Shown here: positions 7,776 through 63,699 of the stretch, piece after piece
Layout: every line of letters begins with the position of its first letter
How positions within the stretch are numbered: position 1 is the first letter of the stretch
Assembly: GCA_027575765.1 (NCBI GenBank)
Contig: JANBPT010000025.1
Coordinates: 1-64,000, forward strand
DNA from: Tieghemiomyces parasiticus
Lineage: Eukaryota > Kickxellomycota > Dimargaritomycetes > Dimargaritales > Dimargaritaceae
DNA length: 64,000 nucleotides
Direction: 5' to 3'
Made by a program: the position numbers and the translations under genes
The notes under the pieces: model-generated
The model's database searches: none
Seen by the model: only the letters and a program-made list of their open reading frames with translations
What the model was told of the DNA's origin: nothing

Positions 7776-8255
7776 GTGTCACAAAAATGTTACGGATCCT
7801 ACCAGCCAGATGATGTTTATTAAATCTAATCACCGTCACTCTGTACCACTTGGTACCCTGGTTCTTGCCAACTATCAAAGCAGGCTCTAGAGTCACTGGC
7901 CCAATTGAACTCCTCCAGGCGCTTGGTGGCAAAATGTACCTACCGGTGGCACTGGTCATTGGTGAGGTTGTGGAAGACAAAACATTTAGAATAGCCCCTG
8001 CCTTGCAGCACTCCCGGTAGTAACTATAAAGTCTTGCTTATCACGTCTGGTTAACTTGGGTGAGCCGGGGAAAGGTGGCTTTATACAAGTAGCTATGGCG
8101 GATAGTCAAAAAAGGAGAGTAGTGAGGTCAGAGATGGTCCAACCCTGGAGTGGTTTATACCAATTGGCTCGGCGTCATTGACTCTCCAAGGTTTTATTAG
8201 AACCACTGCAGAGACCGCCAGCTTAAAGGTGTCAAATGGCTTGGCTTCACCGGTA
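7776..8255 (-). repeat. 480-bp repeat copy A, deleted mariner derivative
   Basis: Nearly identical, in the same orientation, to 14289-14770 (about ten differences by eye over 480 bases). On the minus strand it contains a block also found in the mariner transposase relic at 31.5-32.4 kb: the stretch through CACAACCTCA, GTGCCACC and TGGAGGAGTTCAAT, then directly the transposase 3' end (GTGGTACAGAGTGACG...TTTAATAAACATCAT). The region encoding the catalytic core is missing. It reads as an internally deleted, non-autonomous copy. I could not define terminal inverted repeats or a target-site duplication, so the element boundaries are only those of the alignment. Confidence 0.75.
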
Positions 8256-14288: not shown

Positions 14289-14770
14289 GTGTCACAATAA
14301 AACGTTACGGATCCTACCAGCCAGATGATGTTTATTAAATCTAATCACCGTCACTCTGTACCACTTGGTACCCTGGTTCTTGCCAACTATCAAAGCAGGC
14401 TCTAGAGTCACTGGCCCCATTGAACTCCTCCAGGCGCTTGGTGGCAAAATGTACCTACCGGTGGCACTGGTCATTGGTGAGGTTGTGGAAGACAAAACAT
14501 TTAGAATAGCCCCTGCCTTGCAGCACTCCCGGTAGTAACTATAAAGTCTTGCTTATCACGTCTGGTTAACTTGGGTGAGTCGGGGAAAGGTGGCTTTATA
14601 CAAGTAGCTATGGCGGATAGCCAAAAAAGGAGAGTAGTGAGGTCAGAGATGGTCCAACCCTGGAGTGGTTTATACCAATTGGCTCGGCGTCATTGACTCT
14701 CCAAGGTTTTATTAGAACCACTGCAGAGACCGTCAGCTTAAGGGTGTCTAATGGTTTGACTTCACCGGTA
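14289..14770 (-). repeat. 480-bp repeat copy B, deleted mariner derivative
   Basis: Direct repeat of copy A at 7776-8255 with a two-base insertion near its left edge (ACAATAAAACG against ACAAAAATG) and a handful of substitutions, clustered toward the right edge. It shares with the 31.5-32.4 kb mariner relic both the block around TGGAGGAGTTCAAT and the 3' block GTGGTACAGAGTGACG. Flanking sequences of A and B are unrelated, so the repeat unit itself, not a larger segment, was copied. Confidence 0.75.
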
Positions 14771-20303: not shown

Positions 20304-23300
20304 ATGGTCCGGCCGTCCGACCAACCCAACTCGTCCTCGAGCCTATCCGACCTATCGGAGCATGACTCGCTATCCAGCTCTGATGGGATGTCGCCCTCAC
20401 ACCGCAGCGACGTCCCATACCGCCGAGCCTCGCGTATGACCGGCCGGCGAACGGCCCTTACCACCCCGCTTGCGGTCGAATCGGACTCTGAGGACTACGG
20501 GGACGACTTGATCACTGCTTCGCCCTTGCCCTCGCGGCTCCAGCGACCGTTGCGTAACGGTGTAGGCTTATCGCTACCTCCTCGGTTCGGCGGTCCCAAC
20601 CCTTTCTACATGACCACGCGCAAGCGCACCAGCGACGCGATCCGGCCGGCCGAGGAAGGCGCCACCGCCCGTGGTAATGAGGATCGACCAGCAACCGTAA
20701 CCGGGAGGCCCCCTCTTAAGCAGCGCCGGGTTATCGCCTCGTCGCCTGTGGCTTCAGATACAGCACTGCGGTCACCACCACCTGCCTCAATCCTTAGCCG
20801 ACGTGCGAATTCCCCAACTGGCCAAACGTTGCGTAGCCATCATCACCCAAGCCAAAGGCGACGGGCCGGCGAAAGCGACGAGAAGGAGTTACCACCGACG
20901 GCACCGATAACGTCGCCAACGAGATACCCATTGCGGTCACACCGGGCGCAGAATAGGGGGACTCCCCCCGCATCTGCCATGGTGGACCGCAGTGATGATC
21001 ACCGCTCCGATATAGACATGGCAGCGCACGTACCCAGTAATCAGACCGACCCTGACGACCCCAGTGCGGGCGACATCAATGACGACGACGACAACTTCGC
21101 AGAACGGTCTGCCAGATCGGAGGACGCTGATGATCGTAGGAGTGGCCAGGACTGGCATTCTGAAGATGAGGTCGCTAGTTCCGGACATGTTGCGACCCCT
21201 GCCACTACTCTGGATGGGTCCGAGCTGGGCGGCCCCGATGATGGGGATGGCCGTCCGCGGCTTCGTCCGCGCCGTAAGGCTGTCACGTACGATGAACGCA
21301 ATGTGCTCCGACTATCTACCACTGCGGACACCTCACGGTCAAATCGGTCCTCTGTGACAGCCACCACCCCCGGTCGGCGGGATCAACGGCGCCGTAAATT
21401 GGTCAAGCGGGGTAGCCGAAACACCGCCCCGGCCTCTGCCAAGTCCGCAGACGGGTATCAACTGCGCCGCCGAGCCCGGCCTGTTAATTATGCACTTGTG
21501 GCTGACCCGCCAGCCACCGAATTTGATACCGCTGTAACGGACCACCAGCGTGATCCCGCCGTGTACCCTGGCAGGTACTCGCATGGGAGCCGATCACCAC
21601 AGGGGGCCAACGGCCATGTCGCGTATGGCCTGCGTAGCCGAGGCCGTCGGGCTGACGACGACGATGACGACTACGGCAACAGTGATAGCCGCCTATCGAC
21701 GTACCACGCGATCCCGCCCCGGGACAGTAGTCGTTCCACCGCACCCTTCCCGAACCTGCCCCCCGAGACGCAAAATACCGGGCCTAGCGGTACGTACGCT
21801 AACCTCCTACGTCGGCTGGGCGCGCCGCGACCGCGTCGGCCTAGCGCCTCGATCCATGACTCTCGTCCGCGCGCTGACTCTGATCCGGACCCTTCGTCAT
21901 CGCTACCTGTCCCGGCCAACCTACACAGTCTGGGTCGGATGCGCCCTCCTGACGCGTTAGTTGGGACCCCAGGCCGACCCCTTGCCACTATCCCGCCCAC
22001 CCCGCGCCGCGCGGCCGGCGGAGGCCCAAATGCCGATGCGGCTGCCGACGCCGATCCACTTCAGGGCGCGCCTACCGCCACCTTCGCTGACGTGGGCGGC
22101 CTTGACCACTACGTGCGTTCACTTAAGGAGATGGTGATGCTGCCCCTCCTGTACCCGGAACTATACGCCCAGTTTGGCATCAGCCCGCCTCGCGGCGTGC
22201 TCTTCCATGGACCGCCAGGGACAGGTAAGACGCTCATGGCTCGAGCCCTGGCCCACAGCTGCTCCACCGACACCCAGAGTGTGGCCTTCTTCATGCGGAA
22301 GGGTGCCGATTGTCTCAGTAAGTGGGTGGGCGAGACGGAACGGCAACTGCGTGTGCTCTTCGAACAGGCCCGCGCCTGGCAGCCCAGTATCATCTTCTTT
22401 GACGAGATTGACGGCATCGCCCCCGTGCGATCCAGTAAGGCCGATCAGACGCACGCCTCAATCGTGTCCACCCTGCTGGCCCTCATGGACGGCCTAGATG
22501 GCCGCGGCCAGGTCGTGGTGATTGGTGCGACCAACCGTATCGACGCCGTGGACCCAGCCCTTCGGCGGCCCGGCCGGTTCGACCGCGAATTTTACTTCCC
22601 CCTGCCCAACGCCGCCGCCCGGCGTGCCATCCTGGGGCTGGCCACCGTTCCGTGGGTTCCCCCGGTACCGGCCACCGACCTCGACGCCCTCGTGCAGCGG
22701 ACCAAAGGCTACTGTGGCGCTGATCTGAAAGCCCTGTGCACCGAGGCCGCTCTCCATGCCATTCGACACCGGTACCCGCAGATCTACGGAAGCACCGACA
22801 AGCTCGTCGTCGACCCAACGATGGTGACGGTGGGACCCGCCGACTTTGCCCACGCCCTCCGCCATATCGTGCCAGCAGCCCACCGTGTGGCTGGCGTCGC
22901 CGCGGCCGAACTTCCTCCCGTCCTCCGCCCCCTGCTCCAGCCCGTTCTGGAACGCGCCCTGCGAGCGCTTCACCCGCAGGTGGGCCATGTGTCCACCCGC
23001 GGAGGGGTTACTGCCCGACCCGCCCTGGGGTGGCCTGCCCCGACGACCAGTGGTCCCTCCGCCGCGGCCGGTCTGCCTCGCCTACCCTCGGCAGTTTTGG
23101 CCATCCTAGGCGACAGTGGTGACCCGACAGTCGCGTCACCCAGCCTGGAGGGTACCCCGGTTTTCCGGCCGCGTCTACTTCTCACTGGCCGGCCGGGGCT
23201 AGGCCAGGACCGCACAGCGGCGGCTATCCTCAGCAGTCTAGAGGACTGGCACGTGGTATCTCTAGACCTGAGTAAGCTCGTGGGAGACGATGCCCAGCAT

Positions 23301-25092
23301 CCCGAAGTGGCCTGCGCCCGCGCCGTGGTCGAGGCCCGTCGCCACACACCCAGCGTGCTATACCTCCCCGACGCGGTGTTTTGGTGGGACACCGTAAGTG
23401 ATACAGCCAGCCGGACCTTGGTCCACGCCCTCCTTACCCTAATCGGACCGCATGAGCCCGTGCTGGTGCTCGGGTACGCTCAATGCACGTGGGATGCCGT
23501 ACCCGATGACCTGCGCCGGCTATTCATCACAACCTCTGGGGTGGATCCGGTCGCTTCGGTCCTGCCCCTCGAGCCGCCCGCGGCCAACCAGCGCGCGGCG
23601 TTCTTTGCGTCCCTCCTAACGGATCTCCGGCGGCCTGTCCCGCCCCACCCGGCTCTCGCGTCCATCGATACCAATGGTGACGGTCCGCCGCCGTCGCCAC
23701 TTCTTGAGTTTGCCCCTTTGCCCAAGGCTCCGCCCCCGGAGCCTCGCAAACTGACCGCACACGAGCGGCAGGCCCTCCAGGACCATGATGACTACGTATT
23801 CCGTCAGCTTCGCCTCCTACTGCGCTCATTGCTTGAGGGCTGCATCAAAGACCGCAAATTCAAGGGTCTACAGCGTCTGACGGACGAGGACCATCCGGCA
23901 GCCGCCCTCCACCTCCGCTGCCCGCGACCGCTGGACTTAGGCCGACTTACCGACCATATTAATGCCCATTATTACCTGACTCCAACCGACTTTCTCGGCG
24001 ACGTGGACACTTTGGTGGCCAACGTGCTGCACGTTCACGGGCCGACCTCCGCCACAGCCAAGCGAGCTGGAATGGTCGACCGGTCACTTGTTGACCGAGC
24101 CTACGCTTTTCAGGACCACATGCACGCCCTAATGGACACGTCCCTGAATCCGGAACTGGCCCAGGAATGCGAGCGGAGTGCGGCACGCCGGCTGGAGATG
24201 GTCAAGGAGCAACTCCGAGAGCAGGGACGGAGGGGGGAGAACAAAGTCGGGAGGCCTAAGGGGCCCAACAAAGTAAATGGCCTCGCCGCTCTCCATGGTG
24301 CTGAGACCACGGCGACGGCTGCCGCGCCCCTTGACGATGACACGCCTGCCGGGCGGTTGCGGTCCGGCCGCACCCGCCTCCCACTGGCCAGCACTCCAAC
24401 CTCGCCTCCAGCTCAGCGCAGTTCGGGCTTTCGCCGGCGTTTACAGTTCTCACCGTCCATACCGACAGAGCCCGAGGAGAGCCCCCCACGCTCGGCGTCA
24501 AGCACACCGCCACCGAATGGATTAGGCCCAATTTCTGAAGGCGTGGAAAGGCTGCCGTCGCCCACTTCCTCCCGCAGTGGCCAACGATCCGTTGTTGACC
24601 CGCTTATGTCCAGGTCATCACCAAGCACGGCCACTCACAATGGGTCTGGGCCAAGCACCAACAGCCCATCTGAAACTGTCCCGATGGAGAATGTCACGGC
24701 GACTCCGGCCTCACCTCTCGCTGCTACTGCCACCGTTGATGAAGTGGCAATGGATCGGCTGGCTCATCTACTCATGAGCACAACGGATAACTTCACGGTT
24801 GACGAGCTCGACCATCTGCGCGTGACCCTGCTGCAACGTATGGCTTCGTTTGCCATGGTTCAAGACCGACGGCCTCTTATTCAGGTAAGTTTTAGGTTGA
24901 CTCGTTAGGACACGGGGTATTGGGTATACCTAAAAATCGGAATCCCAAGGACTCGACCGGCTCTCCGCCGCTGCTTGTCCTTTATTTTGCTTACCCACTC
25001 TATGCCTAATTGACATCCACGCCAACACACTTTCTAACCCTTTCCACATAACGCAGCAATTGCTCCAGTACGTGCAAGGGCTGAAACGCTAA
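20304..25092 (+). CDS. YTA7: Yta7/ATAD2-type AAA ATPase with bromodomain-like region
   Basis: Chromatin-bound AAA ATPase acting on histone H3-H4 at promoters and in nucleosome density control. Exons 20304-24884 and 25057-25092 give 1538 residues. The first 570 are acidic, Ser/Arg-rich and disordered. AAA1 begins at TFADVGGLDHYV; Walker A GPPGTGKT is at 636-643 and Walker B IIFFDEID at 696-703, with GATNRIDAVDPALRRPGRFDRE as sensor/Arg-finger segment. AAA2 is degenerate: its P-loop (962-969, GRPGLGQD) has Gln for the essential Lys, as expected for an inactive second ring. A bromodomain-like segment spans about 1161-1292 (YVFRQLRLLLRSLLEGC, YLTPTDFLGDVDTL), but the Tyr-Asn pair that contacts acetyl-lysine is Val-His (1244-1245). 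The last exon encodes only QLLQYVQGLKR and closes a helix typical of the family's C-terminus. Confidence 0.95.
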
Positions 25093-25343: not shown

Positions 25344-26857
25344 TCATACCACCAGCGGTGGCGTGAACAATTCACCGACGTGCTCGATGGCGCTGCGCGG
25401 GTCATGCTTGTAAGTAACAAAGTGGCCCTGCAACTGGGCCGTACTCACCGGAGGCCGGCCTTCGAGAGCGGAGACGAACTGGTCGGCCAGGGCCGTCTTG
25501 CCCTCGTAGAAACGCAGAAACATGAGCCGCATTTGGTATGGCGTAGCATCCCCGAGGTACACTTTCATATCCACGCGGCCGGGCCGGATCAAGGCCTGGT
25601 CGAGCCGATCGATGTGGTTGGTCGTCATGAGGATGATACGTTCCTCGGACGAGGCAACGCCGTCTAGGGCGTTCAGGAGACCGCTAAACGTAACGTTGGA
25701 TTGGAAGCTGGCAGGAGTGGGGTACGCAAGATGGGTTGTCGAGCACAGTCATAGAAAACGAATAAGGGATGGAACCAGGTTAGACCTTTTCTTGGCAAGC
25801 ATGCCGGTGCGTTCCCGCCTTACGGCCAGCGAAAGGTGGGTTAATACGCAGAGGGTGAGCTCAAGGCTCTACAATCCAGCTATAAACTTATGCCTTACCC
25901 TTCTTGGTCGGTTTGCTTGCGCTTGGTGAAGGCAGCATCCACGTCCTCAAGGAGGATCAGACTGCGGATGGGGGCCACGCTTAGGAGGTGGTTGAGCCGA
26001 TCGTCGGTGAGCCCTCGTTCGCTCAGGTTGAGGATACAGATGTTGTACTGCAGGTGACCGGCGAGAGCCTGGATGAAAGAGGTTTTACCACTCCCGGGCG
26101 GACCATACAAGAGGTAGCCGCGGCGGTAAGGGATCCCACGCTGGTTGTACCACGCCTCGTTGGCGATGAAATCTTCCACGTCGCTGACGATGCTCTCGGC
26201 CAACCCACGGTCTAGAACGACCGAAGCCATGAGTCGGCGCTTACGCGGAAGGCCGAAGGGTCGCCATTCGGACCCCCAACTGGTGAGCATGACGGTTTTA
26301 CCATCCTCCTTGGCTAGCGCGGCCTCGCGGGCATCCTCAAGCAGGGTCTGGAAAATGCGGCGGTCGCGGCTCAACGTGGTCAGAGTCACCGTCTCGAAGG
26401 GATTGCCTGTGGTTAGGTCCATGAGGCGACCGTCGCGCTGCCGTTCGACGCGGAGCCACACCCCGCGGTACTTAAAGTAGTGCCTCCCCGGACCAGGCAC
26501 CAGGTTGAACGTACTGGATACGCTGCCGTTGTCATGCCGTCGGTAGCTGGTCTCCACTGCCAGCTGCTGAGAGTTCTTTCGGGTCACTTGTGCGTGGCTG
26601 ATCCAGTTGAGAAACCACGGGTAGCTCTTGTCCCGGCTCGGAATCTCCAGCGTCACCAGGAGATTGCGTTGCGCAAGGTCCAGGCCACGTTGCAGGCCCT
26701 GACGGAGGACGGCGAGACCGGCCCCCACTCCGATCAGTCCGAATCCGGCTGAGAAGTACGGATTACCCGTGACAGCGTCCAGGAGACCCGACGAGGTGGT
26801 CGCGGGGACATTAGTAGCGACATTGGCCGATGGTTCGAATGGAGGAATCGCGGACAT
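25344..26857 (-). CDS. BCS1: Mitochondrial AAA chaperone Bcs1
   Basis: Inner-membrane AAA protein that translocates the folded Rieske protein into complex III. Minus-strand exons 26857-25899 and 25707-25344 give 440 residues, near the yeast length of 456. One hydrophobic segment near residues 35-52 (FSAGFGLIGVGAGLAVL) is followed by basic residues, the internal targeting layout of Bcs1. The Bcs1-specific domain follows (SYPWFLNWISHAQ, FNLVPGPGRHYFKYRGVWLRVER). Walker A GPPGSGKTS is at 252-260, Walker B reads LILLEDVDAAF, then NVTFSGLLNALDGVAS and TTNHIDRLDQALIRPGRVD. ATG 26857 is the first ATG; six extra upstream codons open with TTG. The 191-base intron splits the AAA domain just after Walker B. 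Convergent with YTA7, 251 bases apart. Confidence 0.96.
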
Positions 26858-27403: not shown

Positions 27404-27829
27404 TTAATTCTCGTTGAGCAGATTGACGTTGGCCTCAATGAGGTTGTTAAAGAGTTCATCGAAGCGGCGGCTGTTGGAGTTGTCGTTCAGGGCGTTGACA
27501 TCAACCTTGACAAGGTCATTGAAGAGCTCGGTGAAACGGCGGTTGTTGGAGTTGTCGTTCAGGGCATCGACGTTGACCTCAATGAGGTTGTTAAAGAGCT
27601 CATCGAAGCGGCGGTTGTTGGAGTTGTCGTTCAGAGCGTCGACGTTGACCTCTACGCCGTTGTTGAACAGGCGGTCGAAGCGCCGGTTGTTGGAGTTGTC
27701 GATCAGCGCATCGACATTGACCTCTACACCGTTGTTAAACAGGCGATCGAAGCGGCGGTTGTTGGAGTTGTCGTTCAGGGCATTGACGTTGACCTCCACG
27801 CCATTGTGGAACAGCTGGTCGATCGGGGC
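27404..27829 (-). repeat. 72-bp in-frame tandem repeats
   Basis: Six copies with a 72-base period, seen as recurrence of the (minus-strand) Asn-Asn-Arg-Arg coding segment at about 27465, 27537, 27609, 27681 and 27753. Copies differ by scattered substitutions, many synonymous, while the period is never broken. This indicates selection on the frame and on the Arg-Arg spacing. Confidence 0.9.
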
Positions 27830-27883
27830 GGCCTGGATGGCGGCTAGGAGGAAGGCAGAGACGATGGTGATAGAGATCTTCAT
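27404..27883 (-). CDS. Secreted repeat precursor with Arg-Arg processing sites (KEP-like)
   Basis: A single-exon gene for 159 residues. A clear signal peptide (MKISITIVSAFLLAAIQA, hydrophobic core then Ala-Ala) is followed by six imperfect 24-residue units. Each of the first five ends in D-N-S-N-N/S and then Arg-Arg; units two to six begin F-D/T-x-L-F-N-N/D. Cleavage after each Arg-Arg, the Kex2 specificity in the fungal Golgi, would release a series of similar 22-residue acidic, Asn-rich peptides: central V-x-V-N-V-D-A-L, no Cys, no Tyr. This is the layout of Kex2-processed repeat proteins (KEPs), the group that includes precursors of mating pheromones, fungal RiPPs and repellent-type peptides. 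Product function is unknown. The 5' leader of about 245 bases has no upstream ATG and is pyrimidine-rich, and a TATA box is present, so the gene looks expressed. No modifying enzyme lies nearby. Confidence 0.85.
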   Translation of the reverse strand: MKISITIVSAFLLAAIQAAPIDQLFHNGVEVNVNALNDNSNNRRFDRLFNNGVEVNVDALIDNSNNRRFDRLFNNGVEVNVDALNDNSNNRRFDELFNNLIEVNVDALNDNSNNRRFTELFNDLVKVDVNALNDNSNSRRFDELFNNLIEANVNLLNEN

Positions 27884-28128
27884 GGTGATATTAAGATTGC
27901 GCGGTCGGCAGGTGAGTAATTGCTGGGGACAGATCGTAACGGTGGGGGAGAGGCGTGACAACGAGAACAAAAAACTTTCTGAAAATTCGAAGGAGAAGGT
28001 GGGAGAGGCTAAGTGGCGAATGGCTAGCACAGGACGGTGCAAAGGTGCAATGGGTTACAATGCGACGCAAGAGTGTGCGAATGGCGAATGGAGCTGAGGT
28101 ATCGTCCTGTCGAGGAGTACTTACCGGC

Positions 28129-31100: not shown

Positions 31101-31524
31101 TAGGACGAAATAGTTTCCCACTTTTAAGCTGGGGGTCTCGGATCGCATCGTTTCAGATATGATCTAGAAGAGGCAACGATGCCGAGGCGATTGGTGTAAC
31201 TTATTCCAGAATTGAACGATTTTTGACTTCACAACTTGCGTTTTTACCTCTCCATCATGTATAATTTTTAAAACTCCATTCCCCACCCCATCCAAGTTTA
31301 CCAGGCACGATGTACAGGTTCTCATTTATCAGTACTATTGTGAGAGCGACAAGGCAGACTATATTCTAGTTCAACTTATCATCACACTTGGCTCAGCTGC
31401 CCTTTCCTGCAACACCGTTAGCAGGTGGTTAGCTTGTCTCTATACGGGCTACTAGTCCCTTGAGTATGAGACACAGTCCGGCTGCCCGTCGGATGGCATT
31501 GACAAACTTTACGAGGTCATACTT
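28136..31524. other. Gene-poor, AT-richer stretch
   Basis: About 3.4 kb with no supportable gene on either strand. Base composition is clearly more AT-rich than the flanking genes and open frames are all short. No RNA gene or repeat recognised. Confidence 0.5.
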
Positions 31525-32355
31525 CTGCATTGTTGGAGGGCGACCCTCAACTGACTGCAGAGCCACCAACCCATGCCTGTCGTATTTCCCATGGTACCAT
31601 GTACAATGTCCTGCTCAGGGACCTGGGGGTGCACAGCTATTTCAATTGTTAGGTCCCCCACAACCTCATCCACGACTAGTGCCACCAACAGGTACGTTTT
31701 GTCACTGAGTTCCTGGAGGAGTTCAATGGGACCAGTGACTACCTGCTGGACTCCATCGTCACAAGTGATGGGACTTGGATGTATATTTATGACCCCCCCC
31801 CCTTGCCAGCTTTAGTCGCCGGAGGTGGTGCCCTAAAGGTGGTCCTATCCCAACTGAGACTCGCCGAGGCCATGGCACACTCAAGGTGATGCTGACCATT
31901 GTTTTTCACCAGGCGTGGCTTGTTACATCTAAGGGTGAAGGTGCAGGGGGTAATGGTCCAAACTTCCACGTTCTTCCCCCCAGGCCTGGAGCATGGACTT
32001 CAGCCCATACCCTACATAGAGTTTGGTGGAGATCTTGGCACCAGGGGGCTTGACAATGATAATGCACCACTGCATCGTGCTGCAGCCATCTGTACCAACA
32101 TTTCCGGCACCGGAATCAAAGTTGTGCTAGTCCTTCCCTACCGTCCTGACCTGCCCCTCTGCGATTTCTGGCAGTTCAGGAATATCAAACGATGGCTGAG
32201 GGGTAAGAAGTTCACCATGGTGGAGGTGACTGTGGACGCCTGGCAATCGGAGTTGGTTAAGTTCTGGCCAAGTGGCTTTGGAGTCTGCTATGGTAGCTAG
32301 TTAGAACAAGGTTGTCGAGTGGTACAGAGTGACGATGGCTATATTTAATAAACAT
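31525..32355 (+). mobile_element. Decayed mariner-family (DD34D) transposase
   Basis: Fragments in shifting frames follow a mariner transposase in order: the linker motif GGRPST after the helix-turn-helix (about 31529), YNVLLRDLGVHSYF, VRFVTEFLEEFNGTSDYLLDSIVTSDG with the first catalytic Asp, WMYIYDP, then VMLTIVFH. Next come DNDNAPLHRA with the second Asp and LPYRPDLPLCDFWQF with the third Asp, 34 residues between second and third, the DD34D spacing. The C-terminal GKKF and WYRVTMAIFNKHHFE close it. Stop codons and frame changes (for example before 31680 and near 31890) make it inactive. I could not define the inverted terminal repeats. The 480-bp repeats at 7.8 and 14.3 kb share two blocks with it. 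Confidence 0.85.
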
Positions 32356-38547: not shown

Positions 38548-40546
38548 CTAGGCCTGGTTCTTGGAGGACTTGAGCGTCTGCAGCTCGGCCCGGAGATTAG
38601 CTTCCTTCTGAATCTTGACGATCTGCTCGGGTTCGAGGGTGGCACCTTCGTTCTGGCGCTGTTTGAGAGTCTCGATCTGCTTGAGCTGCCGGGTGACGGT
38701 ACGCAACCGGTTGCTGACTGCATTCTCGCCGGGAGTGGAACTGGCGCCAGGCGGCGGAGCGGCGCCAGGAATGTAGCGGGCCTGGGTACCGGCTTTGTAA
38801 ACCGGTGGGGCGGCAGCGACGGCGGGCGAGGCCGAGGTGGCCCCGCCGTTGGCCCGCTGGTTCTCGTCGTCCCGCCGGAAAGACGCCGGGGTAGGGGTGC
38901 CGCGGGCGTGAGGTGGACGGTAGGCTCCCGCGGCGACGGCCGGGCGAGTCGGAGTCTTAGATTCGACCGTGATACCGCGCGGGGGCGGGGACAGAGCGGA
39001 ACGGTCGGGGAAGCGCTGCACTGGCAGGGGACGCCAGGTGGTCTGGTACAGTTCGTGAATCGGGCGGTGGAAGAGGAGGCTGCCGGTGTGGTGCCAGACC
39101 TTGATGCCATTGTCGACGCGCAGCCGCGGGGACAGTGTCGCCGTCATGAGGTGGCGACCGCTGGGCGCCCACGCACAGGTTGTCGAGTTGCTGCAGTCGA
39201 GGGTTACCAGCTTAGTGCGCGTCTTGAGGTCCCAAATATCCGTCTGGCCGGTCAGGTTGCCGAACCCGGCGATGGCTACCAGTCGGCCCTGGGGATTGAA
39301 CTGCACAAAGTTGCGCGGCGCCGTGCCAAAGTCGTGGATACGGTTGGCGCGACGATCGAATAGGGCCGCCTTGGCAGGCATGTAGCCATATACCACTGCA
39401 AACTCTTTGGCATCTGGGTCGGGGTTCCATGCTACATCGTGGATGGGACCCTCCTTGTCCAGCACCACGTGGCAGTCAAAGTTACCCGTAATGGTTAGGT
39501 AATAGAGGTTGGTCTCGCCGTAGTACGACTTACCCGTCGAGTCCATGTCGGTGGAGCACAGCACCAGCAGGTTAGTACCCAAGGAGTTCCAAATGAGCTG
39601 GGCCGTGTCGGCCTTGAAAAAGGTCTTTTGGGCCAGGGGCTGGCGAAACTGGCCCACGGCGTAAAGACGCACGTGGCCCGGTTGGCTCTTGCGGGCAGGT
39701 ACGAACACGGCCACGGCAGGGGAACGGCCGGGCGAGAAGGCGAAGGTCGAAACGCCCTCCAACTGCAGACGCAGGTGGACTCCACGATCCAGCCTGGTGG
39801 GGTCGAAGAAGTGGACCTCATTGGTGGCCAAGATAGCGCAATACTGCTCGTTGTAACTCCACTGAAAGGTCCAGCTGGACTGCAGCTTGCGAGTAAAGGC
39901 CCCCAGCTGCTCGCCCGTGGCCGTGGCCCAGATGAGCGTGTTCTTGGGCAGTGGGCCTTCGGGTGGCTTCACAAAGCGCTCCCACGTCAGCAGGTAGGTG
40001 CCTTGCGGGGAAAAGTCAAGCTCCACGACGCCGGCCCGGGGTAGCACCTGGACCGTCTGGTTCTTGGCCACGTCCAGGATATGTACGGCGTCATTCGAAG
40101 CCCACGCGAACAGTCGGCCGTCAGGGCTATACTTCATAGCCCGGAGCATACCCTGGGGCTTGTCAAAGCCGGCGACATCCTGGACCTGGGGCGGTCCCGT
40201 GAGGAGGCCGATCTCTTTGACGGAGCGATCTGTGGAGGGCGGGGTATAGGAGAGCGGTGAAGCGTGATTTATCAGATAGAGTTCGAGTAGGGCTCGGTAC
40301 CCCTCCCCACAAGTGGGGAAATGTCTTCATTCACTCGGGCACAGGGAGCTGGGTGGGCGGGCGGGACAAGTGAAAAAAAGAGGGGGAGAAATTCATAGCC
40401 GCGGCTGGCGCTGGTCGCCGGGGTCGATGCATCGGGGAATTAGAGATCGACTACCACGGAGCCAGCCCGATTCGTCGGTAGAAAACGGCGGCGGCCCGCC
40501 TCTACGGGGTAGGGGTCTACTTACAGGCGATCTGGAGGTCTTCCAT
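38548..40546 (-). CDS. EIF2A: Eukaryotic translation initiation factor 2A
   Basis: WD-repeat initiation factor that can deliver Met-tRNAi independently of eIF2. Minus-strand exons 40546-40525 (22 bases, MEDLQIA) and 40229-38548 give 567 residues. The beta-propeller starts at SVKEIGLLTGPP and FDKPQGMLRAMKYSPDG and includes LLTWERF, FQWSYNEQYCA, VAVFVPARK, DVAWNPDPDAKEFAVVYGYMPAKAALFD, NFVQFNPQGRLVAIAGFGNLTGQTDIWD and CAWAPSGRHLMTATLSPRLRVDNGIKVWH. These last three are signatures of eIF2A. A Pro/Ala-rich linker with RPPHARG and a C-terminal coiled coil (LKQIETLKQRQ, ANLRAELQTLKS) end the protein, as in homologues. The 295-base intron directly follows codon 7. The upstream divergent gene is THI80. 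Confidence 0.95.
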
Positions 40547-47716: not shown

Positions 47717-48710
47717 GGACAGGAGAGGGGCGTCGTATGAGTTCCTGGGCACAAATTGAGCAGACGGTCTCGCCCTGCTACAAGTTGGGAAGCTGTTGGC
47801 GTCCGGCGTTGGTAGATGATTAAACAGGGCCTGGCCAGTTGCTAGACGGCGATGCGTGGTGAAACCCGAGGAGGGACGGCGGAGTCCGGGCGGCCGAAGC
47901 AGAAGTGGTCACAACGGCGATACGGAATGAGCCCCGAGGCGATGTAAAACTGGCTGGCTTAAGAAGGGAGGAGGTTAAGGGGGATGCGGGAATGGGCTAA
48001 TTTCGATGGCGAGACGCTAGCAAGGGAGAGTAGGCGGAGATGAATGGGCGTGTTTGCAAGGGCGTTTCAGGGTGCCCCGTTGGCTATTAAATGTCGAGCC
48101 AAGTGAGTTGACGGTTGGTGGGAGAAGGGTTGCGTGGCGGTATGGCTTGCGACGCCGCGGCCCGACTGTACAAGGGAGTGAGCCAGGTGGGTATATCGGG
48201 GAACTGGGCAAGTTGAGGCCCGACTGCATGCCACATTATGCTAGCAGGGCGGAACTGTCACGTCGAAGGGGCCCAGAGGGCCAGGGGACTCGGATCGGCG
48301 CATTAACACCCCCCCTCTGAGCCTCTTGGGCCTACATTAGGTGGGAAGAGGTGTCACGTGATGGAATAGGTAGAAGAGAGTGGCCACCTCGGGTCTCAGC
48401 GCAGCCATCTGCCTGAAGAAGGTGGTGGGGTTCCGGCTGTGCTGGATTAATAACGAGCCTAGCTAATTAAATCCATGAGATAAGTGTCCTCCTAAAGACC
48501 CTCTGGGCATTAGCCACAGCAACCAGAAAAAAAGAAAAACACGCCCCCTTTGCCGGGAGGCGAAACCCAAGCGGTCAGCCATGTACCTCGTGGGCTTGTG
48601 ATATACGATTTATATGTAAAACTTTGCAGTAGGGTAGAAATAAAGCGGTGGCCAGTCGAATGGCATGGCCAACATTAACACAATTGAGGATGGGCCGTAA
48701 ACCTCGTGCG
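47717..48710. other. Intergenic between two minus-strand genes
   Basis: About 1 kb holding the MIL1 promoter and the 3' flank of the next gene. No gene recognised. A possible last exon of the next gene, starting at 48621, is discussed there. Confidence 0.4.
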
Positions 48711-49313
48711 TCAGGACTCACCAAATAAAATACGGGTGCCCAGGCGGGCCTGGGCTTGGACCTTACGCAGCCGGCCGGCCAACCGCTCGGTACAGAGGGC
48801 AGGTTCGGGTACGCGGTGGTCGGCCACCAACCGGCGGGCCAGCTCGGCCACATCGTCATGCTCGTAGACCGACAAGCGCTGCACGGCGCGGGTGTGGAGC
48901 TCCACGTCCACCGTGACGAGGTGCCGACCACGGGGGCCAAGCGGCGGGGACGCGGCGGCGTATGCCGTGTGGCTTGGAGTACGGGAGATGGCCGGGCGGA
49001 CGGGGGTGGCGGTGGATGTATTCTTCCAGGCGTAGCCCGGACCAGGCTGCGAGTGGCTCTTGGCGAGCGGCGGCTGGGTCGCCGGCGAAATGGACGCGAA
49101 GAGGGAAACGGCCGGGGGCAGGTCGTGGTGGTTGGTCGGAGGCGTGGCCGGAAGGCGGGGGAAGCCCACCACGGGGGAGGTTGCCGACTGGCCGATGGGC
49201 GTGGTGTTGCGGGACCGTGGGCCAAACGTGGGCCGGAATTCCGGGGCGTTGGGCGACAGGAAGGAGAAAGAGGACGGCTTGGCATCCGCGGGAGGCCCGG
49301 TCGAGACCGCCAT
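48711..49313 (-). CDS. Hypothetical protein with a small C-terminal globular domain
   Basis: ATG 49313 opens a 200-codon frame ending in TGA 48711-48713. The first 130 residues are Pro/Ser/Thr-rich (ADAKPSSFSFLSP, SATSPVVGFPRLPATPP). The C-terminus has a compact segment HLVTVDVELHTRAVQRLSVYEHDDVAELARRLV, whose two strands and helix resemble beta-grasp-like modules found at protein ends; I cannot name the family. The ATG follows a good acceptor (TTCTGGTCCAG) and a GTGAGT donor lies at 49529, suggesting a 216-base intron in the 5' leader that ends at the start codon. At the 3' end the stop overlaps another donor (GTGAGT at 48721); splicing to an acceptor at 48622 would replace the last three residues by VLHINRISQAHEVHG. 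Both ends are therefore uncertain. Confidence 0.6.
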   Translation of the reverse strand: MAVSTGPPADAKPSSFSFLSPNAPEFRPTFGPRSRNTTPIGQSATSPVVGFPRLPATPPTNHHDLPPAVSLFASISPATQPPLAKSHSQPGPGYAWKNTSTATPVRPAISRTPSHTAYAAASPPLGPRGRHLVTVDVELHTRAVQRLSVYEHDDVAELARRLVADHRVPEPALCTERLAGRLRKVQAQARLGTRILFGES

Positions 49314-49900
49314 CTGGACCAGAACGTGAGCAATCGGTGATAGGGGGAGAGTTGGGTGGTGGTGGTGGTGGTGGTGGCGGCTGAGCGGTCGGAAGCCAGA
49401 GCAGAGGGGATGCACAAGCCAGGAGATGAGGCGGGGGGGCGGAGTTGTGGGTCGTGTTGTCGAGGCCATCGCAGCGTGAAGGCACCTCGGAGGGGTGTGG
49501 TACGTGCGGGCAGGAGGGCTTCCACTCACGACTGGTGAAGGTTAAAGTGGGCGGTGCCACGTTACTCCCCCCCCGCCTTCTCGCTATCTGACTTGTGGGG
49601 TGAGGGCCCACCCCCGCTGTGAGGGTCCATCGCCACTCCATTGGGCCAGGCAGCGGTGACCTTTACTGCCACCAACCACACGCTCCGTTGCCCTTCCACA
49701 ACCCAGACCTGCTTTCCACTTTCTTTTCTCCAGTCCTCGTTTGCACGGCTTCCGCACCCGCATTCGCCGGCACGCATGCCTCGCACTTTGACCCCTGTCC
49801 GCCGGACCTTTTAAATCCTCCAGCTGCACCTCTCGCCGCCGGCTCCTCCCGCCCAGACCTACAAACTACTGCCCTGCTACAGTCTATCAACCCTTTCGTC
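49314..49900. other. Leader intron and divergent promoter, with (GGT)n run
   Basis: 49314-49529 is a probable leader intron of the minus-strand gene. It includes a GGT run at about 49353-49378. The rest is the promoter shared with SDS3, pyrimidine-rich on the + strand. Confidence 0.45.
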
Positions 49901-61107: not shown

Positions 61108-63699
61108 TACATGTAGGAGGCTGACGGCCGTTGGATCCACCGACTGGACAGCATATGGTCACTGGCTGATGACTGAAGCAATAAACCAAGATCACGATGC
61201 ACCACCCAATTTTAACAGGTTGGGGGACAGTGAATCGGAGGTGAGGAGTGGCCTACAGCCTCTCTGCTCACACATGGAGGACTAACCATCCTAAATATCT
61301 TGAACATCAATCATATTCTGCTATTGTCCATAATCAAATATTCATTGGTCGGGATATTGTGTATAGGATTGTGGTACCCAAAAACCACACTAGGGCTAAC
61401 GCATGCCTACACCACCTAAAGTAGCTCCACCATTAGCACACCACCCTGCAACCGGCTGCCCGAGTTGCAGGAGCATTCCGGGCATCTCTCCTCGAACCCA
61501 TACTACTATCGCCCATGAAACCTTTGGCCTCCCAGAGCCACTTCCGAAACTATGAATCCTTTTAGCCTAACCTTGCTATATGAACCACCAGGTTCGCCTT
61601 GATGAACTCGGTCTCCATTGTTGTCATCTAGTTTTTTGTATTCGCTTGACAGTGCGTAGCACTCACCATCTAGGGGTGGCCCTTAACTTCTTTGCCTCAA
61701 TAAACCCTCCCCGCTTGGCTACTTGTCCAGTTGGTGCCAGCCCCTCATTTATGGGCACCACAGTAGCATTGCCCCTTGAAATTAACAGCTACCATAGTCC
61801 CTAATAGTACAAAATGATAAATATGTAAAGGTGTTAAATTGCTGACAGTATATTGCGGAATGATAGCTCCTAATCTGATCGGCAATTTCTATCACGATAG
61901 AATGAATTGTAGAGCCTATTACACACAGCAAACATCTTATGCGAATGCACTTACCAACCCCACTAGGGCTCAGCGTATAGCTGATGCACATTTGCGTTAA
62001 TTTCGCATCTGGTAGCTATTAAGGTAGCGGAAGCTGCACTAAAAAAGTCACACCACCATGGGATCACTAAGGCACCTGTTGGGCCTTCCAGCGGGTCTGA
62101 TAATGCGGTCTAGCTACTGTTATTGGCGAATGAGCTTGCGCCATGCGATGATGAATAGCATGTCACCAGTGTGTAGTATTCGCGGCACGTGTCCCGCGAA
62201 TTTGTGTTTCGATAGAGGCAAATTTTACGTTTAACGAGTCGAGCCGTTTGAGTGCGCGTTTCCATTGATGAATATAAGGCAAAGTAAGAAACGTTAGCAG
62301 AATGGAAAATGGTTGAACCTAGTAGTACGCCGTCTCACAGCATGCTGCAGCTATTCCACCTATTGCTTAGATGAGGCCTCTCTGCCCAGCCATCAATGGT
62401 ATTGGCCTGGGCTGGTATGGCAAGTAGCATCTACGTTGGCCCTGTCGGTGCAGCTCAAGGACTTGGTGTCAGCGGCACCTACAACAACAGGCGCAACGTA
62501 GGGCCCATTAGCTCTGATGCAAAATGCGACGACGCATACCTGCTGGCCACAGCCCGTGCAAACAACACGTCGCCCAAGACGCACAGTTGGCGAGTGGGTA
62601 GCACACAATTTTAATCTCAGCAGGCGCAAAAAAATAAACCTGCTGCTATGCGAACACCTCTGCAAAATACAGTGGACAAGGGAATGATTTCAAGGCCATT
62701 TTGACGGGATCCTGTAGGGGTGGGATCGACTGTCTCCCTCCGAATCGATCTTTTATTCTATTTCACCCATTGGGGCGGGACTGTTGACAGCTTTCCAAGA
62801 ATATGGGAGGCAGGATCGGCACAAGTGGAATGATGGCGGCGGCCTTCGGGGCTAGTTTTCCCTTACATTGCTTCCGCGTGCCGTGACTCGGCACTTAGAC
62901 ACGGGCATCGGCGAACAGACTCCGCCTGGCGGTTCAATTCGGCAAGTGCCACCGGTTGTTGCGGCGTATTGTGGCACGGGCGGCTTCGTGGGGATCCCAC
63001 GTACCACCCGCATCTTTAGTCCTTTTCATCGTGGGTATACTAGTCAACTAGAGCCGCGCTCTCGTTAGGACTCACCGTGGGCCGTTTGGGCAGTTGGGTC
63101 CTAATCGTAAGGGGCAGTCTGCCCTGTCGGCCGACAGATCCACTCCAGGCAGGGAAAAGGTGGCGAATGGGTAATCCGGCCAGTGTTTGGACGGTGGTGG
63201 ACTGCCTGAGCCTATTTTGCAATGGCTACCTCGCCGCTCTTCCCGTTCCGTCTGAAGCTTCTAGTTTCTGCTTTCCGGGTTTCGCAGTGGAACTGAATGC
63301 AGTGAGAGAGGGAGGTAGAAGCATCTGCTGTCGTCTACCTGCCAGCTTTCCAAGCCCCTATCTCACCAATTGCTTCCGACTGGTGTGCATTACGGCACCC
63401 GCCAGACAAGCACTATATAAAACTGAAATACTCTGCATAGGCCACACTGCCCTCGAATTTTTCGCCGTCACTTACCCTGGAGACCCTTTGCGCATACAGC
63501 CTGCCCTTATATCTTGCCCGTGTTGAGCCGCCCCACGCGCCGTTAGCCTTGAATTCCCGGCCGCTTTCTGCGCTCTTGATCTCCTCGCATTCCTTGCCGT
63601 AACGTCTGCTCGGTTGGCAGCGCGGCTGCATTTGCTAAATAGTTGGCTGTTCCGCTTTGAAGCCCCGTCGTCACCTTAGCCCATTGCTCCGACCTCAAC
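61108..63699. other. Intergenic, 2.6 kb without a supportable gene
   Basis: AT-richer DNA to about 62300, then mixed composition. Short frames (for example 61580-61804, 62393-62665 and 63077-63526) have no family resemblance. The last 200 bases are pyrimidine-rich and probably the promoter of the next gene. Confidence 0.4.

Follow-up and report, generated by a model that had tools for sequence, protein, structure and literature searches.

Kex2 cuts secreted precursors after Arg-Arg, and carboxypeptidase trimming follows; Arg-Arg and Lys-Arg are both good Kex2 sites. Fungal Kex2-processed repeat proteins (KEPs) are defined by at least three tandem repeats of at least 8 residues, none longer than 100 residues, lying between KR, KK, RK or RR pairs behind a signal peptide, and 7878 of them were counted in 1345 of 1461 strains (PMC7329392). 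The Zoopagomycota have the most KEPs per strain, and Dimargaris goes unmentioned in the main text of that survey. The functions of KEPs are described as largely unknown (PMC9769878). We report here on KEP-A (protein P0001), a gene of Tieghemiomyces parasiticus (NCBI taxonomy: Dimargaritales, Kickxellomycotina) best read as an ordinary precursor of this kind, with a core found nowhere else in the searches made. It lies in the first 64,000 nucleotides of contig JANBPT010000025.1 (C532, 109669 bp), which is the whole stretch of DNA that was analysed and is called the window below. Dimargaritales form haustoria, and their hosts are mostly Mucoromycota (PMC10386755).

Two Ustilago maydis proteins described in PMC4617103, Rep1 and Hum3, appear to be the closest working analogues of KEP-A, which is likened to them by description. 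Like KEP-A, the repellent Rep1 is a secreted precursor of imperfect amphipathic repeats separated by Kex2. Its peptides assemble into surface-active amyloid-like fibrils, whereas the predicted peptides of KEP-A would have 19-24 residues and a computed amphipathicity. In Hum3, the Kex2-separated amphipathic repeats are joined to a surface-protein domain, a hydrophobin, within one polypeptide; in T. parasiticus, by contrast, separate genes carry the motif, and no hydrophobin domain was detected in the family proteins scanned. Dikaritins such as ustiloxin (PMC7329392; EDYXI core, PMC6339444) have the KEP layout in common with KEP-A, but the KEP-A cores contain no Tyr. With fungal KEPs at large, as presented in PMC6339444 and PMC7329392, KEP-A shares a secreted-looking chain, at least three tandem repeats of 8-100 residues between dibasic sites and a kexin in the genome. 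Unlike other KEPs, it has a core for which no relative was found beyond T. parasiticus, and a related motif also stands on secreted-looking proteins that are not KEPs.

Results

KEP-A is encoded on the minus strand of the window (Table 1). The protein starts with MKISITIVSAFLLAAIQAAP, followed by six tandem units. Its start, like those of the paralogous genes described below, shows by eye the classic pattern of a signal peptide, with a likely cleavage before Ala-Pro. Units 1 to 5 have 24 residues each including the terminal RR, and unit 6 has 19 residues up to the stop. The unit period is 72 nt, for which Tandem Repeats Finder gives a score of 425; a period of 144 scores 528. The RR pairs stand at residues 43, 67, 91, 115 and 139, i.e. 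at 5/5 internal boundaries, and the chain has no further dibasic pair. From residue 21 onward it contains no Cys, Tyr, Trp, Pro or Met, while Asn accounts for 38 of 139 residues; the net charge is -3 to -5 in the five cores examined out of six. On this reading by units, KEP-A has the repeats of a KEP as published, six of 19-24 residues with RR at every internal boundary.

A preliminary description of the window had proposed a secreted precursor with a signal peptide, Arg-Arg at all five unit boundaries, a strict 72-base period and acidic, Asn-rich peptides devoid of Cys and Tyr. It named no strand, and these features are borne out by the sequence, the signal peptide as a pattern read by eye. 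Its six units are also found, but only the first five have the 24 residues it gave to all. The peptide ends that it announced, Phe-Asp at the start and Asp-Asn-Ser-Asn-Asn at the close, do not extend to unit 1, which starts with Ile-Asp, to unit 5, which starts with Phe-Thr and ends with NSNS, or to unit 6, which ends with NEN.

The assembly (46.5 Mb, 1363 contigs) contains a second copy of the locus. On either side of KEP-A, the window and contig C854 are colinear, at 94.4% identity for a stretch of 3977 nt and 90.4% for one of 4529 nt. Because of this colinearity and because the other family loci are also paired, it is probable that the assembly represents two haplotypes or a hybrid; Dimargaris cristalligena may likewise be non-haploid (PMC10386755). 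The six contig pairs compared are about 86-94% identical. The C854 copy of KEP-A is interrupted by a run of N within the array, which may be an assembly gap. Its readable part comprises MKISITIVSALLLAAVQAAP with two complete units and a fragment of a third, followed by a partial unit, one whole unit and the last unit.

We compared the two genome copies of each locus, over the codons readable in both, through the ratio of nonsynonymous to synonymous divergence (dN/dS). For KEP-A, a dN of 0.061 and a dS of 0.399 give a ratio of 0.15 over 122 codons. The other five frames give 1.34, 3.66, 1.61, 3.21 and 0.24, the first four having stops in both copies. The antisense frame 27438-28097 on the plus strand was discarded as a candidate gene: although open in the window, it is interrupted in the C854 copy by a stop that lies within an unjoined stretch and not at the join, and its ratio of 0.24 is that expected of a shadow of the coding strand. 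When units 1-5 were compared among themselves, the coding frame gave a pooled ratio of 0.28 and the shadow frame one of 0.45, against 0.97-1.87 for the other four frames. Judged by these comparisons, the frame is a protein-coding gene under purifying selection. Its synonymous divergence between copies (0.40) is four to five times that of the neighbouring BCS1-like (0.079) and Yta7-like (20304-24908; 0.098) genes. This raised value may reflect exchange between units, which we suspect because the nearest match to the readable part of unit 3 in one copy is unit 5 in the other.

Searches of the genome itself, in which the best candidates were scored and their frames read, yielded a family of at least six loci, each in two copies. 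Three of them encode repeat precursors. Besides KEP-A, on C532 and C854, these are KEP-B, seen as 5' parts at the starts of contigs C373 and C849 and as 3' parts at the ends of C511 and C537 (units such as FDQLFNNLIEANVDLLNDNSNSRR), and KEP-C, on C1093 and C196, with units of 22 residues such as FNKLFNKVADVKINALNDHSKR. Five KEP-C units stand in a register set by eye, the third being decayed. Boundaries 1/2 and 4/5 carry KR; 2/3 and 3/4, beside the decayed unit, read DL and GR. Unit 5 ends with KR-R-H-stop, and a remnant of a further unit is found past the stop in both copies. A match on C1058 (E 0.05, within an open frame of 1967 codons) was dropped as probably due to chance after 251 bases had been viewed.

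In shuffled versions of the mature KEP-A chain, at least five dibasic pairs occurred in 35 of 20000 cases, a 24-residue spacing not being demanded. Because tandem copies inherit RR, this statistic is not the main evidence for the pairs, which is, at the level of sequence, their conservation across gene copies and paralogues. In KEP-A, RR closes 5/5 unit ends in C532 and 4/4 readable ones in C854 (9/9). In the four pieces of KEP-B, which may overlap, it closes 14/14 readable unit ends, two of which precede a C-terminal tail and not a unit. The codons show silent changes (CGCCGC, CGGCGC, CGCCGT and CGTCGC in KEP-A; CGTCGG, CGTCGT and CGTCGC in KEP-B), and RR is retained behind a KEP-B unit shortened by two residues, to 22. 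In KEP-C, KR takes the place of RR at 2/4 internal boundaries per copy. We regard as improbable that the repeat protein works uncut, with Arg-Arg serving the structure or the charge of the repeat. Such a protein would fit the KEP-C frame, which stays open though two boundaries have no dibasic pair, and processing is here deduced. The swap between two good Kex2 sites in KEP-C, the persistence of RR through silent changes and a shortened unit, and the presence of a kexin all argue against it.

The genome encodes an intact-looking kexin. Contig C353 has one P_proprotein match, within an open frame of 981 codons that contains Peptidase_S8 and P domains. It scores 530.6 bits against yeast Kexin 2id4, over an alignment spanning the Asp, His and Ser motifs, whose residues we take to be catalytic. 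By eye, a hydrophobic stretch and then an acidic tail lie C-terminal of the aligned part. Profiles of the S10 carboxypeptidases and of DPPIV_N gave 10 matches on 8 contigs and one match, respectively, which are candidates for the Kex1 and Ste13 equivalents. KEP peptides of Coprinopsis have been detected upon expression in Pichia (PMC9769878).

The three precursor genes have a core motif, FDxLFNxLVxVDVxALND, in common with three further genes (C888/C551, C495/C509 and C635/C829). These encode secreted-looking proteins that contain the motif once, right after a signal-peptide-like start, with one Cys within the motif and one past it, and that continue into Gly/Asn-rich or PEY-rich repeats. Residues D26, L28, F29, L32, C34, D36, A39, L40, N41, D42, H43 and C50 are common to all six N-termini of these proteins. 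The proteins of C888, C551, C495 and C509 are Gly/Asn-rich, with NGGG or GGNPGGNG repeats and the Cys form of the motif at their head. In C635 (30130-31665), the single motif and the two Cys are followed by NSPSSDARP repeats and by PEYxAxSPxPxKEVDT repeats; the C829 protein has the single motif, two Cys and the NSPSSDARP repeats, and runs off its contig. The dN/dS ratio is 0.11 for KEP-C (143 codons) and 0 for the 3' part of KEP-B (44 codons); measured on N-terminal parts only, it is 0.21 for C888/C551 (52 codons) and 0.05 for C495/C509 (50 codons). Among the family members compared, it is uneven but never reaches 1. Judging from the sequences, the sharing of the motif between KEPs and non-KEP proteins is the unusual part of this family, and the presence of the motif on other secreted-looking proteins suggests a shared role at the fungal surface.

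Three other views of the peptides were considered. In ascomycete alpha pheromones, the cores within a precursor are near-identical, whereas dN between KEP-A units 1-5 reaches 0.27. A mating pheromone precursor of the alpha-factor type would have the same layout, and the KEP-A units fall within the class of 9-24 residues given for ascomycete alpha pheromones in PMC6339444. However, a single receptor should call for an invariant ligand, and it counts against this view that the cores differ at several positions within one gene (units 2 and 3 at one residue only) and between genes even in charge, from -5 to +1. The motif is also carried by other secreted-looking proteins. We consider a pheromone to be quite improbable. 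A precursor of the dikaritin type, i.e. of a ribosomally synthesized and post-translationally modified peptide with cores cyclised by UstYa-type enzymes, would again account for the KEP layout, but no core contains Tyr. The UstYa (DUF3328) profile has no match in the genome, a search in which 14/14 control genomes were silent too and which therefore does not demonstrate absence, and none in the 13 distinct window frames scanned. This origin is very improbable.

The main rival, unlikely in our view but the one to be taken most seriously, sees in the peptides diffusible signals or effectors that Kex2 would release where the mycoparasite meets its fungal host, and that would either be sensed by a receptor or affect the hyphae of the host. 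The haustorial habit of the order would suit such a role, and signalling and effector functions have been put forward for KEP peptides (PMC6339444). The cores vary across units and paralogues under a constant layout, and the highest dN/dS, 0.44, is that of the KEP-B 5' part (73 codons). Against this stand the ratios below 1 throughout the compared members, which reveal no arms race, and the fact that low-complexity secreted-looking proteins bear the motif as well, which would not be predicted if the peptides were only a diffusible ligand.

Of 4929 candidates from a search of P0001 against 5.8 billion proteins, none had an E value of 0.01 or below. At E 10, the family alignment matched 2 of the 7989 candidates that were scored, and both are annotated fragments from T. 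parasiticus. A control search with eIF2A showed that the same protein database includes some Dimargaris and Dispira proteins. The absence of relatives outside T. parasiticus is nevertheless weak evidence, because KEP-A itself is missing from that database and the short genes of relatives may be missing too. No comparable core was encountered in the parts of PMC7329392 and PMC6339444 covered here; an earlier listing in their supplementary tables is possible. A full-text literature search for the genus Tieghemiomyces yielded a classification paper. None of the 9 Pfam matches of P0001 reaches its curated cut-off. These and two Pfam matches of KEP-B were judged to be effects of composition and set aside; the KEP-B ones are DUF2783, with 26.5 bits for a cut-off of 25 and no single stretch passing, and Imm49, with one stretch below the cut-off. 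No solved structure of a relative of P0001 was found at E 1, and no phage relatives were found.

In the window, the gene closest to KEP-A described here encodes a BCS1-like AAA ATPase outside the system, whose first open stretch starts about 550 bp away. A dispersed repeat occupies window positions 31193-32350, and also 7891-8230 and 14406-14712; its relatives on C888 and C551 are about 68-87% identical to the window. Another dispersed repeat, at 62121-62673, shows about 80% identity to C511 and C537, at whose ends KEP-B lies. Positions 48575-49641 hold, on the minus strand, three overlapping open frames of more than 230 codons, of which the one scanned has no Pfam match. Scans for bacterial-type promoters and tRNAs gave nothing useful.

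Table 1. Positions of KEP-A, its parts and other features in the window.
Feature	Position	Strand	Remarks
KEP-A (protein P0001), six-repeat-peptide precursor	27404..27883	minus	single open frame, 159 aa; ATG at 27883, TAA at 27404-27406
Signal-peptide-like start MKISITIVSAFLLAAIQA	27830..27883	minus	by eye; paralogues start alike
KEP-A unit 1, IDQLFHNGVEVNVNALNDNSNN + RR	27752..27823	minus	
KEP-A unit 2, FDRLFNNGVEVNVDALIDNSNN + RR	27680..27751	minus	
KEP-A unit 3, FDRLFNNGVEVNVDALNDNSNN + RR	27608..27679	minus	
KEP-A unit 4, FDELFNNLIEVNVDALNDNSNN + RR	27536..27607	minus	
KEP-A unit 5, FTELFNDLVKVDVNALNDNSNS + RR	27464..27535	minus	
KEP-A unit 6, FDELFNNLIEANVNLLNEN + stop codon	27404..27463	minus	without trailing dibasic pair
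TATATAA	28129..28135	minus	252 nt upstream of KEP-A ATG
BCS1-like AAA ATPase gene, first open stretch	25895..26857	minus	neighbour outside the system; dN/dS 0.03 between copies
eIF2A frame	38548-40149		533 residues, 100% identical to a 567-residue protein named as Tieghemiomyces parasiticus

Discussion

The overall explanation that we find best, with a probability of roughly 0.45, is that KEP-A is a Kex2-processed secreted precursor whose peptides work at the hyphal surface together with the motif-bearing proteins. Its first part is, taken as a whole, very likely: the chain would enter the secretory pathway, kexin would cut behind each Arg-Arg, and a carboxypeptidase would strip the basic residues to leave peptides of 19-24 residues, from the first of which a dipeptidyl aminopeptidase could take off Ala-Pro. 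Its second part is more tentative. The peptides, with a first half able to form an amphipathic helix and an Asn/Ser-rich tail, would act at the hyphal surface or in the extracellular matrix. The shared motif would let them associate at this site, both among themselves and with the Gly/Asn-rich and PEY-rich proteins, which would carry this motif at their mature N-terminus, perhaps clamped by a disulfide. The manner would be akin to that of the smut repellents. We favour a surface role on two grounds: the motif also stands at the head of low-complexity secreted-looking proteins, and the first half is an amphipathic helix by its moment. Over residues 1-11, the helical moment of 11/11 motif sequences (9 KEP units and 2 single-motif ones) is above at least 97% of shuffles, with p values of 0.001-0.026. 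AlphaFold also predicts a helix over residues 19-41 of the single-motif module, with a mean predicted local distance difference test score (pLDDT) of only 60.9.

Several observations weigh against this explanation. The helix signal comes from one of six segment-and-angle tests per sequence (three segments, two angles); residues 7-17 and the strand angle gave little signal, and segments of 18 residues gave p values of 0.008-0.079. The AlphaFold model of the KEP-A precursor, with a mean pLDDT of 33, was uninformative and was discarded. A surface role gains nothing from Pfam, since no surface domain such as hydrophobin was detected in P0001 or in the five family proteins scanned. Selection is weaker on the KEP-B 5' part and on C635/C829 (dN/dS 0.34 over 110 codons, N-terminal part only). 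In both copies of KEP-C, 2/4 internal boundaries have no dibasic pair in the register set by eye; these missing pairs count in part against strict conservation, and they coincide with the decay of a unit. A TATA[AT]A[AGT] element lies at -172 to -256 in 12/12 upstream regions (six genes, both copies), compared with 728 of 20000 random non-coding window positions that have one in the -260 to -170 stretch; this counts in favour of the explanation, but the stretch was picked after the result had been seen and the six promoters may share ancestry. No promoter word of at least 8 bases common to at least three loci was found. Finally, the processing, expression and function of KEP-A are read from sequence.

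The preliminary description had recognized in the layout a fungal Kex2-processed repeat protein, and the RR pairs kept in KEP-A (9/9) and KEP-B (14/14), the KR of the third gene and the kexin of the genome agree with it. It had also held that homologues with conserved repeats and unconserved Arg-Arg pairs would speak against such a reading. KEP-C corresponds to this in part, at two of its four boundaries, whereas KEP-A and KEP-B have kept theirs. That the gene stands alone is true of its neighbourhood, but not of the genome, which has two paralogous precursor genes and three motif-sharing ones, nor strictly of the window, given the BCS1-like gene. Among the signalling, surface-coating and antagonistic roles it had offered, the motif-sharing proteins favour the surface or matrix.

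A more specific, speculative and on balance unlikely version would give the one motif two uses. Kex2-cut precursors would supply it as free copies, and silk-like Gly/Asn-rich and PEY-rich proteins would bear it as a Cys-containing N-terminal module, the free peptides seeding, capping or cross-linking an extracellular coat. If this were true, it would be a coat-assembly system in a fungus outside the Dikarya, built on one shared adhesive motif. In any case, this small family of genes, from an order of mycoparasites that has been little studied, links KEP peptides by sequence to larger secreted-looking proteins, and these motif-bearing proteins are candidate binding partners for KEP peptides.
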